NCBI GenBank assembly: GCA_025774425.1
Contig: JALGWA010000019.1
Location: 1-10,888, forward strand
Reading direction: 5' to 3'
DNA: 10,888 bases
DNA from: a bacterium
GTDB taxonomy: Bacteria; Arandabacterota; Arandabacteria; Arandabacterales; JALGWA01
Below, one piece after another: positions 5,523-10,860 of the stretch. Each line of letters begins with the position of its first letter. Within the stretch, counting starts at the first letter, position 1. The notes beneath the pieces were generated by a model. That model was given only the letters and a program-made list of their open reading frames with translations, made no database searches and was not told the DNA's origin. The translations under genes were made by a program, and so were the position numbers.

Positions 5523-6650
5523 ATGCTCAAGGCGAATATCACGCTGTTCAGGGTCTTCGGCATTCCCGTCGAGGTCAATGTGTCCTGGTTCATCATATTC
5601 GCGCTCGTCTCCTGGAGTCTCGTCTCGCTCTATTTCCCGAGCAACTATCCAGACATGGCGGTCGCCTCTTACTGGATCATGGGCATTGCGGCCGCCCTCA
5701 TGCTCTTCGCTTCCGTCGTGTTGCACGAGCTCAGCCATTCGTACGTCGCCAAGACGCACGGCGTTCCCATAACGCGGATCACCCTCTTCCTCTTCGGGGG
5801 CGTTTCGCAGATGGAGCGCGAGTCGGACAGTCCCGACACCGAGGCCAAGATCGCCATCGCCGGCCCGGCAATGAGCTTCGCACTCATGTTCGCTTTCTTC
5901 CTCGCGTACTACGCCGTGCGGGGCGCCGGTGGGACCGGGGGCGTGGCGCCCGTCTTCAGGTACCTGGCCATCGTCAACGGCATGCTCGGCGTCTTCAATC
6001 TCATCCCCGGCTTTCCGCTGGACGGCGGCAGGCTGCTCCGCGCCGCCATATGGAAGGCGACCGGCAACTTGAGGAAGGCGACCTATGTCGCCACGCGCGT
6101 CGGCAACGTCGTCGGCATCGTCTTCGTGCTTTCCGGCTTCCTCGCCGTGTTCTGGGGCTACTTCATCTTCGGCCTGTGGATGGTCATGATAGGCTTCTTC
6201 CTGCGGCAGGCCTCGGCGGCCAGTTACTTCCATGTCGTGGTCGAGGCGGCCCTCAAGGGCTACAAGGTGCGCGATGCGATGAGGAAGGACGTCGTCCTCG
6301 TCACGGGTGACATCAGCATCCAGGACCTCGTCGACGAATACGTCTTCAAGCATCACCTCGACTGCTACCCCGTGGTCGACGGGCGCGAGCTCGTGGGACT
6401 CGTCGCCGTGGAGGACATAAAGGGCATGCCGAGGCGCGTGTGGGCATCGACCCCGGTTGCCAGCGTGATGAGGACAGACCTCGACAAGATAAGCGTCGGG
6501 CCCGACGACGAACTGGCGGGTGTCTTCAGGAAGACCGTCGGCGAGCGCTGCGGCCGGCTTCCCGTCGTCGAGGGGGGCGAAGTCGTGGGCGTGGTCGCGC
6601 GGAACGACATAGTCGAGGCCATGAGAACCCTCTCCCATGTCCGGGAGTGA
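5523..6650 (+). CDS. M50 site-2-type membrane metalloprotease with two C-terminal CBS domains
   Basis: A 375-residue polytopic inner-membrane protein. Zinc site HELSH (H68, E69, H72) lies in a membrane segment (about 51-72). The third zinc ligand is in NLIPGFPLDGGR (159-170; D167), the family's second signature. Further hydrophobic segments are near 20-38, 113-133, 143-162 and 193-228. The cytosolic tail carries two CBS repeats, about 247-302 (VRDAMRKDVVLV and PVVDGRELVGLVAVEDI) and 312-366 (VASVMRTDL and PVVEGGEVVGVVARNDI), which commonly bind adenine nucleotides. Site-2 proteases cut transmembrane helices, often of membrane anti-sigma factors. GGAGG lies 4 nt before the ATG. The gene stands alone, divergent from polX, and ends 14 nt from the convergent ZAS gene. 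All catalytic residues are intact; the substrate is unknown. Confidence 0.95.
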   Translation: MLKANITLFRVFGIPVEVNVSWFIIFALVSWSLVSLYFPSNYPDMAVASYWIMGIAAALMLFASVVLHELSHSYVAKTHGVPITRITLFLFGGVSQMERESDSPDTEAKIAIAGPAMSFALMFAFFLAYYAVRGAGGTGGVAPVFRYLAIVNGMLGVFNLIPGFPLDGGRLLRAAIWKATGNLRKATYVATRVGNVVGIVFVLSGFLAVFWGYFIFGLWMVMIGFFLRQASAASYFHVVVEAALKGYKVRDAMRKDVVLVTGDISIQDLVDEYVFKHHLDCYPVVDGRELVGLVAVEDIKGMPRRVWASTPVASVMRTDLDKISVGPDDELAGVFRKTVGERCGRLPVVEGGEVVGVVARNDIVEAMRTLSHVRE

Positions 6651-6664
6651 GGCGCCCGCGCGGC

Positions 6665-7285
6665 CTACCGGATCTCCAACGCTATGACGCCTATTCCCTC
6701 GAGGTCGACCTCGAACCTGCCGGTCCCGAGCGAAGTGAAGCGCACCTTTCCCGACCGGGAGTACCTGGTCTGGGTCGCGTCGGCGGAGCGGAGTTTGGCC
6801 TTGAGCGCATCGGGCCGTTCCGAAGACCCCTCGTCGACTATGTCTATCTCCGCGGTGAGCCCGCCCTCATCCTCGCCGATCTCGACCGTGACGAGGTAGC
6901 CGGACAGGGACTCGGCTACGCGCGGCCCGGGGTCGGCCCGTCGCGTCCCCCTCACCGGCACCGGCTCCAACCTGGGAGGGGGCAGGATGTTCCCGGTCGT
7001 CTCCAGTATCTTCACCACACCCCGCCTGAGACCGGCCGTGATAGAGAGGACAGGTCCCGCGCGCACGCCGCGTGCGACGATGGCCGCCGCACGGTCCAGG
7101 GCCGCCCCGGGCGTGCGCACCGGCTCGGCCTCATGCGCGTCGACGAGCCGCTTCAGCTCGGCCACACTGCGGCGGCAGTGCGCGCATCTCTCCAGGTGGC
7201 GCTCCGCCTTTTCGCGCTCGTCCGCGCCGAGGGCGCCGTCGACGTAGGCGGCCGCTTCCGCTTGTGTAAGGCATTCGCGCTTCAT
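6665..7285 (-). CDS. Soluble zinc-finger (ZAS/zf-HC2) putative anti-sigma factor with beta-rich C-terminus
   Basis: A 206-residue protein and last gene of the four-gene operon. Residues 1-50 form a zf-HC2/ZAS-type domain with H30-x3-C34-x2-C37 and an upstream C5, the Cys-His-Cys-Cys arrangement seen in redox-sensitive RsrA-type anti-sigma factors. Residues 50-125 are a linker with no clear membrane helix. Residues about 125-206 look beta-rich (YLVTVEIG, LTAEIDIV, KVRFTS, FEVDLEGIGVIALEIR) and match no family I recognise. Following a sigma gene by 24 nt, it is most likely the cognate anti-sigma factor, acting in the cytosol rather than from the membrane. ATG 7285 is chosen because AGAGGA sits 6 nt upstream; the ATG two codons earlier (7291) would abut it. 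The zinc-finger call is firm; anti-sigma function is inferred. Confidence 0.82.
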   Translation of the reverse strand: MKRECLTQAEAAAYVDGALGADEREKAERHLERCAHCRRSVAELKRLVDAHEAEPVRTPGAALDRAAAIVARGVRAGPVLSITAGLRRGVVKILETTGNILPPPRLEPVPVRGTRRADPGPRVAESLSGYLVTVEIGEDEGGLTAEIDIVDEGSSERPDALKAKLRSADATQTRYSRSGKVRFTSLGTGRFEVDLEGIGVIALEIR

Positions 7286-7309
7286 ATGCATTCCTCTTGT
7301 ATGTGACGC

Positions 7310-7897
7310 CTAGAGCCGCCCTCCTTGGGCAAGTTTCTTGAGCCTGGCCAAAGCCCTTGATTTTCTTGCAGATAGGGCGTCGGTCGAGATGCCGAGCAGG
7401 TCGGCTATCTCCCGCTCCTTGAGCCCGTCCAGGTAGTAGAACTTGAGAATGAGTCGGTCGCGGACCGGCAGCTTCTCCAGCGCCTCACGCACCGTGAGAC
7501 CGACCTCGAGGTCGTGGTCCAGATCCACGTCGGAGGCGATCAGGCGGATGTACTCGTCTTCACCCTCGGAGACGGGCGCGTCGAGGGACACGGCCGGCTT
7601 CCGCTTTAGCGACCTCAGGTGGTCATAGGTCTTGTTGCGGGAGATGCTTATGAGCCAGGTGGTCATCTTCGAGTTCCACTTGAAGTTGCGGAGCGCCCGG
7701 CAGTCGTTGTCGAGCAACTTCTCGATGACCGACGCGTAGATGTCCTCGGCGGTCTCGGGCGAGTCGATGGAATACCTCTTGAGGAGGTTCACGATCGAGC
7801 CGTATATGCAGTCGGAGTATCGCCCGAGGAACTCCCTCCAGGCAGCCTCGTCCCGCGCTATGCATCCGGCGATGAGTTCCTTCTCGTTCATATCCAT
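7310..7897 (-). CDS. ECF-type sigma-70 family RNA polymerase sigma factor
   Basis: A 195-residue two-domain sigma factor of group IV (ECF) size. Region 2 spans about 25-98, with ETAEDIYASVIEKLL (48-62) and the core-binding and -10-recognition segment MTTWLISISRNKTYDHLR (78-95). A short acidic linker (about 105-130) follows. Region 4 spans about 136-190, with LEKLPVRDRLILKFYY and the helix-turn-helix EREIADLLGISTDALSARKSRALARLK recognising the -35 box. It lies 6 nt after the thioredoxin-fold gene and 24 nt before the ZAS gene, the classic sigma then anti-sigma order. The start is ambiguous between ATG 7897 and ATG 7891. Neither has a strong ribosome site, so translation is probably coupled to the gene above. 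No ECF-like motif is obvious upstream of the operon. Confidence 0.92.
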   Translation of the reverse strand: MDMNEKELIAGCIARDEAAWREFLGRYSDCIYGSIVNLLKRYSIDSPETAEDIYASVIEKLLDNDCRALRNFKWNSKMTTWLISISRNKTYDHLRSLKRKPAVSLDAPVSEGEDEYIRLIASDVDLDHDLEVGLTVREALEKLPVRDRLILKFYYLDGLKEREIADLLGISTDALSARKSRALARLKKLAQGGRL

Positions 7898-7903
7898 ATC
7901 CAG

Positions 7904-8533
7904 TCAGTCGGCGAGAATGAGAATTCCGACGAGCACCACGGCCGCGGCGCCCAGCAGGTATTTCCAGGTCTTCGACTTCTTCTCCACGGGTTCGGCCTCG
8001 CGCTCGGGCACCGCCTCCGCTTCCGGCGCCGCGCGCCTTATCGCCTCCTCGATATTGCCGGCCAGCGATTCCCCGCCTCCGTAGACCGTCGCCAGCACCG
8101 ACCCCCCGGGTGAGACCAGGAGCAGCGCGGGCAGGATACCCTCGCCCAGGACGGCGGCTATGACCTCGCCTCCGGGGTCGATGTAGACGGGAAGGTCGAG
8201 GTCCATATCGAGAGCCGCGCTCCGGACGTCGGCGGCCGGGCCCCGCAGCAGCATGACCGGCCGGATGCCCGCTTCGCGGATGCGCCGCGCGCGGCTTTCG
8301 AAGAAGACGGCGCCTTCCCTGCACTCCTTGAGATCGATGTCGCATATGAAGAAAAGCGTCGTGCCTTGGGCCGCGATCGAGTGCAGGTCCCGGGGGTAGT
8401 CCCAGAGGTCGGTGACGTCCAGGTCCGGCAGCCGGGCGGCGAGGCCGCGTACGGGAAGGGCCGCAAGACAGGCGGCCTGGGCGGCAAGCAGCAATACCGC
8501 AAGACCGAGCGGCGACAAGCGGCCGCCGGTCAT
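7904..8533 (-). CDS. Membrane-anchored thioredoxin-fold-like protein lacking CxxC
   Basis: A 209-residue protein. The N-terminus (8-34) is a signal peptide or anchor: LGLAVLLLAAQAACLAAL, then a possible VRGLAA cleavage site. Residues about 40-170 resemble a thioredoxin/redoxin fold: LFFICDIDLKECREG (60-74) at the usual active-site loop, RPVMLL strand, PVYIDPGG (115-122), and LPALLLVSPGG (134-144) like the cis-proline strand. C64 and C71 are six residues apart, so no CxxC is present. Residues about 190-208 form a second hydrophobic helix ending Leu-Ala-Asp, after a Pro/Glu-rich linker and KKSK. The domain is probably outside the cytoplasm. The ATG overlaps the CHAT stop (ATGA) with GAGGA just before it, which fixes the start. 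The fold is inferred from strand pattern and loops; a non-enzymatic sensor or peroxiredoxin-like role are both possible. Confidence 0.7.
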   Translation of the reverse strand: MTGGRLSPLGLAVLLLAAQAACLAALPVRGLAARLPDLDVTDLWDYPRDLHSIAAQGTTLFFICDIDLKECREGAVFFESRARRIREAGIRPVMLLRGPAADVRSAALDMDLDLPVYIDPGGEVIAAVLGEGILPALLLVSPGGSVLATVYGGGESLAGNIEEAIRRAAPEAEAVPEREAEPVEKKSKTWKYLLGAAAVVLVGILILAD

Positions 8534-9939
8534 TCCTCGATCTCCTGGAGCACGGCCCGCACCACCGCGGTCGGGCCCTTCTTGACGTCCACCGTCGCCT
8601 GCCATCTCCTGTAGCCCTTCTTCACCAGGGTCACCTGGTGTTCGCCCACATCGATCTCGAGAGCCGCGGGTGTCAATCCCGCCTCCTCGCCGTCCAGCAG
8701 TATCCGCGCGTCGGCCGGTTCGGACTCCACTATAACATACCCGACCTCGGCGCGGCTCGTCGTGCCGGTCATGCGGCGTCCCGCCTCCCGGGGGGCCAGG
8801 ATGAGGGCGAGCGCCGCCAGCACGGCGACCCCGATGCGAAGGCCCGCGCGGGCGCGCCTCCGTCCGCGGCGGGCGGGCGCCACGGTCGCCAATCCGGCAA
8901 GCGGGTCGCCGTAGAGCGCGTACGCGGCCCACGTCGGGTCGCCGGACTCGCCGCCCTTCGACAGGGCGACCCGCGCCCCGCGGAGCGCCTCGCCGAACGT
9001 GTCACCCTCGAGCAAGCGTTCGTAGAAGGCGAGCGCGGCCGAGGTCGCCGCACGGCTCGCCACATCCCACAGCGGGGCGATGCAGGCCCGCGTGCCCCGC
9101 GAGATCAGCGCCTCCATGATGCCGAGCGGGGACCGCCAGGCCGCATGCGACGCCGTCGAGCAGGTGTTGAAGAAGGCGGCCACGGGGGGCCGCCCGACGC
9201 CCTCGAAGAGCCCCGCCGAGAGCACTCCCCCTCCGTGGAGTTCGAGGCCGGGCGAGCCGTCCGGGCCCGTTGCGCCGTGACCCGTGAAGTGGAGCAGGGC
9301 GGTCTCCGGCAGGAGCGAGAGAATCATGCCTTCGCCGACCTCGGGCCCCATTGCGATGGTGATGCCGTAGCGGCCGTCCTTTCTGAAGAGATCCCTCAGC
9401 GAGTCGACTTCCCGCTCGACATCGTCCCTTATGACGGGATCGTCCGACGGGTCGCCCAGGATGAGCACCCTGTCGCCGCCGGCCTCCGCGTCCGCAGCCC
9501 CACGGCCCGCTTCCGAGTAGACCACCCGCCCGAGGGCGAAATGCAGCGAGATGAACTTCTCGCCGTCGTGGAGAATCTCGAATGGGAGATATGCGAGGGA
9601 ACGGTCGACCTTGAAGATGAAATAGATGTCGCCGCGCCGGATCTCGCTTCTCAAGCGGTCGCACTGGTCCCTGAAGAGAGCCTCGAAGAGGGCGCGGCCC
9701 GCCGCCGCGAGGTCCCCCGACGGCTCGGCTTCGGGCTCTTCCCCGGTCCCGGCGGCGTGGGCGGGACCGGCCGTCGCCCTGCGGACCGCCTCGTCGACGG
9801 CTTCGCATATCCCGTCGAGCACCGGCCTCTCGACCTGCCGGCGCCTTATCATCGGGGCCGAGCCGGGCACGTCGTAGACCACGCTCACGGACACGCGGTC
9901 TCCCGATACGGGAATGATCTCGATCTCGACGCGCTTCAT
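8530..9939 (-). CDS. CHAT-domain caspase-like protease with transmembrane helix and C-terminal PEGA domain
   Basis: A 469-residue protein and first gene of the operon. Residues 1-60 form a small strand-rich head (VEIEIIPVSGDRVSVSVVYDV), followed by an Ala/Glu-rich linker (61-76). The CHAT domain spans about 78-350: LPFEILHDG (118-126), VLILGDPSDD (158-167), the catalytic-His motif LLHFTGHG (H221), NTCSTASH with nucleophile C260, and a C-terminal APLWDV...FYERLL...AL...YGDP. Both catalytic residues are present. A very basic stretch (357-366) precedes one transmembrane helix (about 367-383), which places CHAT in the cytosol and the PEGA domain (about 399-465, VIVESEPADARILLDGEEAG) outside. CHAT proteases are caspase relatives with varied regulated substrates; PEGA domains are found in envelope proteins. 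The start has GGGAGGAGGG 4 nt upstream and a promoter at 9958-9986. Substrate is unknown; the downstream ZAS protein is a candidate. Confidence 0.92.
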   Translation of the reverse strand: MKRVEIEIIPVSGDRVSVSVVYDVPGSAPMIRRRQVERPVLDGICEAVDEAVRRATAGPAHAAGTGEEPEAEPSGDLAAAGRALFEALFRDQCDRLRSEIRRGDIYFIFKVDRSLAYLPFEILHDGEKFISLHFALGRVVYSEAGRGAADAEAGGDRVLILGDPSDDPVIRDDVEREVDSLRDLFRKDGRYGITIAMGPEVGEGMILSLLPETALLHFTGHGATGPDGSPGLELHGGGVLSAGLFEGVGRPPVAAFFNTCSTASHAAWRSPLGIMEALISRGTRACIAPLWDVASRAATSAALAFYERLLEGDTFGEALRGARVALSKGGESGDPTWAAYALYGDPLAGLATVAPARRGRRRARAGLRIGVAVLAALALILAPREAGRRMTGTTSRAEVGYVIVESEPADARILLDGEEAGLTPAALEIDVGEHQVTLVKKGYRRWQATVDVKKGPTAVVRAVLQEIEE

Positions 9940-9957: not shown

Positions 9958-9986
9958 ATCTTATCCAAAGGCGCGTGCACTTGCAA
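9958..9986 (-). promoter_or_regulatory. Candidate promoter of the CHAT/thioredoxin-like/sigma/ZAS operon
   Basis: On the minus strand TTGCAA (9981-9986) and TAAGAT (9958-9963) are 17 nt apart, each matching consensus at 4 of 6 positions. The -10 box ends 18 nt before the CHAT ATG, as in the polX promoter. An inverted repeat (9970-9999) encloses the -35 box. I see no ECF-type -35 (AAC core), so this looks housekeeping. Confidence 0.4.
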
Positions 9987-10065: not shown

Positions 10066-10860
10066 GTGGCATACTACACGAGATACACCGAGTCGAGAGT
10101 ACCCGGGCTGAGTCGGGCCGTGCGGCTGCTGATCGTCATCAACCTGGTGCTCTACCTCCTCGACTACTTCCTGCCGGCCGGCTGGCTCAGGATATTCGGG
10201 CTGGTGCCGGCCTACGTTCTCGGCCGCGGCTGGATATGGCAGCTCGTCACGTACATGTTCCTGCACGGCGGCTTGCTCCACGTGTTCTTCAACATGCTCT
10301 TCCTGTGGATGATGGGGTCCGAGCTCGAGCGCTACTGGGGCAGCAGGGAGTTCGTCAGGTACTACCTCGTGACCGGTGTCGGGGCCGGCGTGATCAATAT
10401 GCTCGTGCAGCCGCATCTCGCGGTGCCCATAATAGGCGCGTCGGGGGCGATCTTCGGGCTCATCATCGCCTTCGGCATGGCGTTCCCGGACAGGGAGCTC
10501 CTGCTCTATTTCTTCATCCGCATAAAGGCCAAGCACTTCGCCGTGCTCGTCGGACTCATCGAGCTCATCTCGCTCTTCGCCCTTCCCCATGCCGGCATCG
10601 CGAGGTTCGCGCATCTCGGCGGCCTCGTCGTCGGCTACGTCTACCTCAAGTGGGAGAGTATCACGTACCCGGCGAGGCGCTGGTACCGGAGGAGCAGGAG
10701 CAGGGCGGCGGAGGCGGCCCGGCGCCGCGTAGAGGAGCGGGAGCGCAAGATGCAGGCCGAGGTCGATCGCATTCTCGACAAGATAGGGCGGGAGGGGCTG
10801 GGGTCGCTCTCCGGCCGCGAAAGGGATTTCCTCGAGAAGCAGAGCGGAAAGCATCGTTGA
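10066..10860 (+). CDS. Rhomboid-family intramembrane serine protease
   Basis: A 264-residue polytopic membrane protein with the rhomboid signature. Hydrophobic segments lie near 18-36, 58-83, 99-117, 120-140, 157-173 and 182-195. WQLVTYMFLHGG (58-69) is followed by H72-x3-N76 (oxyanion-hole residues), the nucleophile motif GASGAIFG (124-131, S126) and the catalytic histidine in AHLGG (H183), so the Ser-His dyad is intact. Rhomboids cut transmembrane helices in the bilayer. After the last helix, a strongly basic linker (204-228) leads to a cytosolic tail with VDRILDKIGREGLGSLS and RERDFLEKQS (233-260), a short conserved-looking module seen on some bacterial rhomboids. The start is GTG 10066: an in-frame stop at 10048 excludes extension, and AGGAG lies 12 nt upstream, rather far. 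It is divergent from the CHAT operon; the substrate is unknown. Confidence 0.94.
   Translation: MAYYTRYTESRVPGLSRAVRLLIVINLVLYLLDYFLPAGWLRIFGLVPAYVLGRGWIWQLVTYMFLHGGLLHVFFNMLFLWMMGSELERYWGSREFVRYYLVTGVGAGVINMLVQPHLAVPIIGASGAIFGLIIAFGMAFPDRELLLYFFIRIKAKHFAVLVGLIELISLFALPHAGIARFAHLGGLVVGYVYLKWESITYPARRWYRRSRSRAAEAARRRVEERERKMQAEVDRILDKIGREGLGSLSGRERDFLEKQSGKHR

Follow-up and report, generated by a model that had tools for sequence, protein, structure and literature searches.

The minus strand of contig JALGWA010000019.1, from a bacterium of the class Arandabacteria, carries an operon encoding a CHAT protease with a transmembrane (TM)-like stretch and a PEGA domain, a thioredoxin-fold protein, an extracytoplasmic function (ECF) sigma factor and a zinc-binding anti-sigma (ZAS) protein. 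The window analyzed is the entire contig, 10,888 bases long, of an assembly that is 83% complete and consists of 476 contigs (GCA_025774425.1). The CHAT protease probably cuts the ZAS protein after Arg114 (R114) and so frees the ECF sigma factor, which would make the operon a protease-operated switch needing no CRISPR system; sigma binding, protease activation, cleavage, release and membrane topology are what we infer from the sequences. The four genes were found as the original prediction had listed them, and the features of the operon are as follows.

8530..9939, minus strand: CHAT protease-TM-PEGA protein, 469 amino acids; dyad H221/C260; TM-like stretch 365-383; PEGA 401-466; Asp167 immediately ahead of helix 168-188
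7904..8533, minus strand: thioredoxin-fold protein, 209 amino acids; signal-like N-terminus and C-terminal hydrophobic tail (by eye); without CXXC
7310..7897, minus strand: ECF-type sigma factor, 195 amino acids; regions 2 and 4
6665..7285, minus strand: ZAS-type anti-sigma protein, 206 amino acids from the ATG at 7285, reading frame opening at 7291; without TM-like stretch; zinc ligands C7, H32, C36 and C39; beta domain about 124-207 (208-residue numbering)
6935..6964, minus strand: codons of ZAS residues 110-119 (208-residue numbering), PVPVR-GTRRA; R114 at 6950-6952; candidate CHAT cleavage after R114
9958..9986, minus strand: weak sigma-70-like promoter TTGCAA-17-TAAGAT upstream of the CHAT gene; comparable pair in relatives (by eye)

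ZAS proteins are recognized by an HxxxCxxC motif plus one more ligand upstream. By this pattern the window protein is a ZAS protein (zf-HC2, E 6.8e-7, 29.7 bits versus a cut-off of 22.2), its ligands C7, H32, C36 and C39 are invariant in nine of nine ZAS proteins, and inhibition of the neighboring sigma factor is predicted from gene adjacency. The neighbor itself is, by sequence, an ECF sigma factor, being short and having regions 2 and 4 only, both above cut-off (TIGR02937, E 2.6e-24, 85.7 bits versus 42.9). As claimed in the original prediction, the anti-sigma protein appears to be soluble, as a TM-like stretch is absent from the window protein and from all 26 ZAS proteins linked to CHAT genes, versus its presence in 20 of 21 control ZAS proteins. 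The highest 19-residue hydropathy after the zinc finger was 1.23 in the window protein and below 1.6 in 43 of 43 members of a larger ZAS set.

The C-terminal part of the linked ZAS proteins is a beta domain, and between it and the zinc finger part lies a loop of variable length with a motif that mostly reads P-x(n)-[V/L/I/A]-R-[G/S], its arginine corresponding to R114 of the window. The invariant residues were H32, C36, C39, P110 and R114 among 12 diverse ZAS proteins and just four, H32, C36, C39 and R114, among 34. R114 was present in 43 of 43 proteins; in the 31 below 50% identity, R114, C36 and C39 were kept in all, H32 in 30 and P110 in 28, and the residue after R114 was Gly or Ser in 26. 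The loop motif was defined before the later loci were gathered. Its strict form occurred in 25 of the 26 linked ZAS proteins (shuffle mean 8.7) versus 5 of the 21 controls (shuffle mean 8.1), figures qualified by a regular expression partly derived from the same sequences, by a CHAT screen of the controls that covered little flanking DNA (in most cases 1.5 kb on either side) and by a linked set that includes the contig-cut loci L052, L132 and L134, with CHAT off the stretch. In the ZAS model (mean predicted local distance difference test score, pLDDT, 84), R114 lies in a coil (104-123), its block (111-120) being the lowest in confidence (pLDDT 55) and followed by the beta domain at 88-96. A fold search with the model reached a best E of 9.4e-3 without yielding any relative informative about the beta domain, and the ZAS profile reached only zinc-finger anti-sigma proteins in the PDB below E 0.1. 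In a further protein (P0022), a foreign-looking tail ends the chain right before the motif arginine, probably as an assembly artifact.

The association of these genes extends well beyond the class. A sigma factor, a ZAS protein without a TM-like stretch and a CHAT protein occur together on one stretch in 28 outside loci (L051, L060, L061, L062, L064, L066, L072, L115-L120, L124, L139-L141, L161-L167 and L175-L178), in several gene orders: mostly sigma-ZAS-CHAT, CHAT-sigma-ZAS in L124, and on opposite strands in L061 and L116. A scan of named genomes that used the CHAT alignment returned 25 loci, seven of them from the class; in six of the remaining 18, CHAT has sigma and ZAS as neighbors, nine are without such a pair and three are cut. 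The six pairs come from Desulfobacteraceae (L060), Desulfobacterales (L066), Omnitrophota (L062, L064 and L072) and a Deltaproteobacteria bin (L061, divergent). The original prediction had proposed a search for the four domains in related genomes and had named missing linkage as a refutation: the sigma/ZAS-CHAT linkage held far outside the class and passed that test, whereas the link to the thioredoxin-fold gene was seen only within it.

A ZAS-profile search of 386 genomes matched at least 47 at E up to 1e-8, with at most seven candidates scored in most genomes, so that ZAS genes may have been missed. At least 16 matches were near full length, eight of them from class members and eight from elsewhere (G055, G047, G194, two in G272, G324, G312 and G242), the rest being shorter. 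CHAT was on the stretch for seven of the eight outside matches; in G055 (L052) the contig stops within a gene whose beginning is cyclase-like, a feature shared by the CHAT gene of G047. Further ZAS matches were obtained in 6 of 9 genomes of the phylum of G272, 2 of 3 of the phylum of G047, 5 of 59 from the family to which the L060 genome belongs and 8 of 9 of the genomes that had yielded earlier loci. CHAT was on the stretch in 23 of the 25 judgeable ZAS-found loci (L115-L121, L124, L135, L139-L141, L160-L168 and L175-L178, some closely related to each other), or in 21 of 23 when L124 and L141, whose ZAS-profile match is only partial, are excluded. Four loci cut by contig ends (L052, L132, L134 and L169) were not judged for CHAT, and L121 (presumed sigma gene without Pfam match) and L135 (upstream side absent) were counted only in the 25. 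L136 and L039 were excluded as controls, and L104 was moved from the controls to the linked set, as L141; first taken as a control ZAS, L104 carried the motif, and its neighbor is a 947-residue TPR-CHAT protein. L123 and L105, in which the ZAS protein adjoining CHAT either has a TM-like stretch or lacks the beta domain, stand outside the 28 and the 25 and inside the 26 linked CHAT rows scored for the catalytic dyad.

A possible membrane-anchored variant is suggested by L105/L143 (G060) and L123 (G327), where CHAT adjoins sigma and such a ZAS protein. The Desulfobacterales bin G390 seems to hold four different ZAS modules (L066, L135, L139 and L140) with CHAT beside each. Relatives of the ZAS protein, known here from ZAS alone and with an adjoining CHAT expected, are present in the named species Desulfobacter curvatus (P0071) and Desulfonema magnum (P0016), and genetics may therefore be possible.

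Within the class, the CHAT(-TM-PEGA), thioredoxin-fold, ECF sigma and ZAS genes were found in the same order in all eight genomes examined, the window's included, with CHAT identities of 30-44% to the seven relatives; the public records of three of these seven carry the label Candidatus Eisenbacteria. The four-gene operon is real, and its retention in all eight genomes excludes a chance arrangement. The genes are tightly packed, with a 4-nt overlap between the CHAT and thioredoxin-fold genes and a 6-nt gap from there to the sigma gene, both exact. The sigma-ZAS gap is 18 nt to the ATG at 7291 or 24 nt to that at 7285. The latter is favored: the proteins of relatives begin at the second ATG, and the copy in the database is 206 residues long.

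The first gene encodes a CHAT peptidase as judged by profile (PF12770, E 7e-24, 85.2 bits versus a cut-off of 24), dyad and modeled clan CD fold, with putative endopeptidase activity; its PEGA domain matched at E 3e-14. As predicted, the H221/C260 dyad is intact: it is correctly placed in the window and kept in 26 of 26 linked CHATs, then in 7 of 7 and 4 of 4 in later loci (the L045 CHAT is cut and hence outside the 26). Twenty of the 26 have a TM-like stretch after the CHAT domain. The parts joined to CHAT vary, being PEGA in the window and TPR, CsgG/LpoB-like, cyclase or AAA among nine other linked CHATs scanned, and the control by PEGA put forward in the original prediction thus finds no support as a general trait. 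The AlphaFold model of the window CHAT (mean pLDDT 83) matched best in the PDB to Csx29, the TPR-CHAT protein of Craspase (8eex, E 5.1e-12, TM-score 0.47 on the query), followed by other Craspase CHATs and separases, and next by gingipain R (Arg-specific, E 4.3e-9), DdvA and SAVED-CHAT. A guanylate/adenylate cyclase domain opens some linked CHATs (L051:7390-10611, L060:2515-5679 and L115:3216-6131; in L052 after 9951, by eye only) and would couple nucleotide signaling to the protease. Another linked CHAT (L061:3011-6763) carries an AAA_16 ATPase along with TPR repeats in an immune-receptor-like architecture.

The evidence that this protease prefers arginine is mixed. In separase, the P1 arginine is read by D2151, equivalent to K670 in Craspase (PMC9729208). 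The corresponding position of the window CHAT in a profile alignment is T299, which is not acidic and speaks against an arginine cut. We take the D2151 position to be correctly counted from the separase catalytic cysteine, whose residue number is assumed here. An Asp on helix 1 binds the P1 arginine in gingipain R and MALT1, and one metacaspase has a proposed one there (PMC4357240). Asp167 of the window CHAT could be its equivalent; the position is Asp in 23 of 27 linked CHATs, with L065 and L067 counted as linked by inference (contig cut, sigma and ZAS at a contig end of the same genome), versus 2 of 13 unlinked ones, of which two (L024 and L076) have no letter at this position and several lie on short stretches. 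Later linked CHATs had it in 7 of 7 and 4 of 4 cases. It is not Asp in L061, L067, L121 and L141, again a point against, and the enrichment may reflect just a closer relationship among the linked CHATs.

In the mechanism that we propose, the zinc-finger half of the soluble ZAS protein would hold the ECF sigma factor, and CHAT would be cytosolic, linked through a single TM helix to a part outside the cytoplasm (in the window, PEGA). A signal received via the part joined to CHAT would switch the protease on, and active CHAT would cut ZAS after Arg114, in the loop ahead of the beta domain. Sigma would then be released from the ZAS fragment, directly or after further degradation, and its targets would be transcribed.

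Several observations weigh against this mechanism. With half of the non-class loci found through the CHAT alignment (9 of 18) lacking a sigma-ZAS pair, CHATs of such breadth often serve elsewhere. On the 10,070-base contig of L160 the motif is present but CHAT was unmatched; in L168, sigma accompanies a ZAS protein whose degenerate motif (PSR-K) keeps the arginine, and CHAT was unmatched in 10.7 kb; both belong to the 43 ZAS proteins without a TM-like stretch. The flanks are partly or wholly as in the window in six of the seven class relatives (L050, the most distant, differs downstream), and because the neighborhood is largely syntenic, the class alone proves little on function. In Craspase, Csx30-N remains on RpoE after the cut (PMC9729208), and a single cut may therefore not free sigma.

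The loop arginine could instead serve docking or recognition, with CHAT binding there as a scaffold that releases sigma by conformational change without cutting. Conservation by itself does not separate a docking motif from a cut site, the separase-type Asp for P1 arginine is missing in CHAT, and L168 retains the arginine where CHAT is unmatched. We nevertheless consider docking unlikely, given that the His-Cys dyad is kept in every one of the 26 linked CHATs and that a strict arginine with, in most cases, Gly or Ser after it, lying in a variable-length loop of low model confidence, agrees with a cut site.

The promoter region bears on whether CHAT is the output of the system. The candidate promoter of the original prediction (TTGCAA-17-TAAGAT, 9986-9958) is weak and was not called by the promoter scan, which called another pair on the plus strand, but by eye a pair resembling it, likewise spaced by 17 nt, lies upstream of CHAT in five of six class members compared, the window included. 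By-eye inspection showed no shared ECF-type promoter upstream of CHAT (6 class members) or of sigma (15 other loci), and ECF autoregulation was rejected on this ground. In L118, short tandem repeats of about 18-20 bases stand directly ahead of the sigma gene (about 6000-6110). Sigma and ZAS might answer another signal and control CHAT, whose substrate would then be something else, such as a cell-death target: cleavage of other substrates is known from CHAT proteases, sigma genes often neighbor their own targets, and sigma and ZAS precede CHAT in most outside-class loci. This arrangement appears slightly less probable still than docking, as a sigma-70-like pair rather than an evident ECF promoter lies ahead of the class operon and as it leaves unexplained the invariant ZAS arginine and the missing membrane anchor of the linked ZAS proteins.

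The thioredoxin-fold protein matched AhpC-TSA slightly below the Pfam cut-off of 26 bits (E 4.8e-5, 23.7 bits). The class alignment contains no CXXC, so the protein lacks the mark of a thioredoxin-type oxidoreductase; its single well conserved Cys is Ser in L050, and its hydrophobic ends suggest that it is extracytoplasmic. Its profile had zero matches among the outside-class loci, and the control ascribed to a thioredoxin-like partner in the original prediction finds no support as a general trait, the gene being seen only in the class. RsrA and ChrR exemplify ZAS proteins that act as thiol-disulfide sensors, and a redox switch of this type under the thioredoxin-fold partner, suggested by that gene in all eight class genomes and by the ZAS zinc site, was rejected as very improbable on account of the missing CXXC, the Ser in L050, the suggested extracytoplasmic location and the restriction to the class.

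The operon is flanked in the window by a rhomboid gene (10066-10860), an M50 gene with CBS domains (5523-6650), PolX and LigA. The two membrane-protease genes recur in several class members and may be unrelated; as parts of the module they were rejected, since neither was matched in the outside loci L051 and L052, M50 was unmatched in L048 and the downstream gene of L050 differs.

To our knowledge, the dedicated cytosolic proteases described as cutting anti-sigma factors are mainly CRISPR-linked. If cleavage after R114 is true, a chromosomal counterpart that is independent of CRISPR and run by a receptor-like protease would constitute a caspase-type route from signal to transcription and would suggest an origin of the Craspase output. 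More tentatively, and at somewhat less than even chance, CHAT-ZAS-sigma would be a widespread chromosomal class of one-protein receptor-proteases with interchangeable sensors (PEGA, TPR, CsgG/LpoB-like, nucleotide cyclase or AAA) that cleave behind an invariant arginine in a soluble anti-sigma dedicated to them, from which Craspase could be a recruited offshoot with a guide RNA replacing the sensor. The proposed mechanism makes one cheap prediction, a cut after a single named arginine.

RseA and RsiW, the anti-sigma factors of classical regulated proteolysis, are membrane-anchored, whereas the window ZAS protein has no TM-like stretch and thus no TM helix for site-1/site-2 cleavage. The module would belong to the protease-released ECF sigma factors, with Craspase, CalpL-CalpT-CalpS, DdvA and the metacaspase-sigma operons as precedents. 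Craspase, of type III-E CRISPR (Cas7-11, the TPR-CHAT protein Csx29, Csx30 and CASP-sigma/RpoE), is driven by guide RNA, and the substrate of its CHAT protease inhibits an ECF sigma factor (PMC10028731). It shares with the window the pairing of CHAT with a sigma inhibitor, and its Csx29 is the top fold match of the CHAT model; the window CHAT differs in having its own TM-like stretch and PEGA, and the inhibitor there is of the ZAS type, its linker containing a conserved arginine. Identity with CRISPR/Craspase was rejected, because a RAMP-family gene (Cas7-11 or other) was matched in none of the eight class genomes, mostly incomplete metagenome-assembled genomes, by a search that was positive in 4 of 14 control genomes, and Csx30 chains in the PDB were unmatched by the ZAS profile at E up to 1. 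PADLOC matched none of the CHAT, sigma and ZAS proteins.

In CalpL-CalpT-CalpS of type III CRISPR, anti-sigma cleavage releases sigma, as proposed here, but the protease CalpL belongs to the Lon family, has a SAVED domain and is switched on by cA4 (PMC11229360), and the window protease is a CHAT. DdvA is the anti-sigma of the ECF sigma factor DdvS in Myxococcus xanthus (PMC4374960), and the PDB entries 8rot/8rw5 (title: transmembrane anti-sigma factor DdvA) include a chain labeled CHAT domain-containing protein, which matches both the CHAT profile and the model. DdvA apparently combines anti-sigma and CHAT in a single chain, whereas here they are separate genes and ZAS is without a TM-like stretch. 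Operons of caspase-like genes with sigma-70 factors were noted in Myxococcus and others in 2012; their metacaspases are not CHAT proteins, and the term anti-sigma is absent from the main text of that article (PMC3501461). Given these precedents, the original description of the module as undescribed needs qualifying, although a literature search of limited reach found no description of the stand-alone CHAT-ZAS-sigma form, of which earlier notice is possible. What may be new is the linker motif common to the linked ZAS proteins, with its conserved arginine as a candidate cleavage site.

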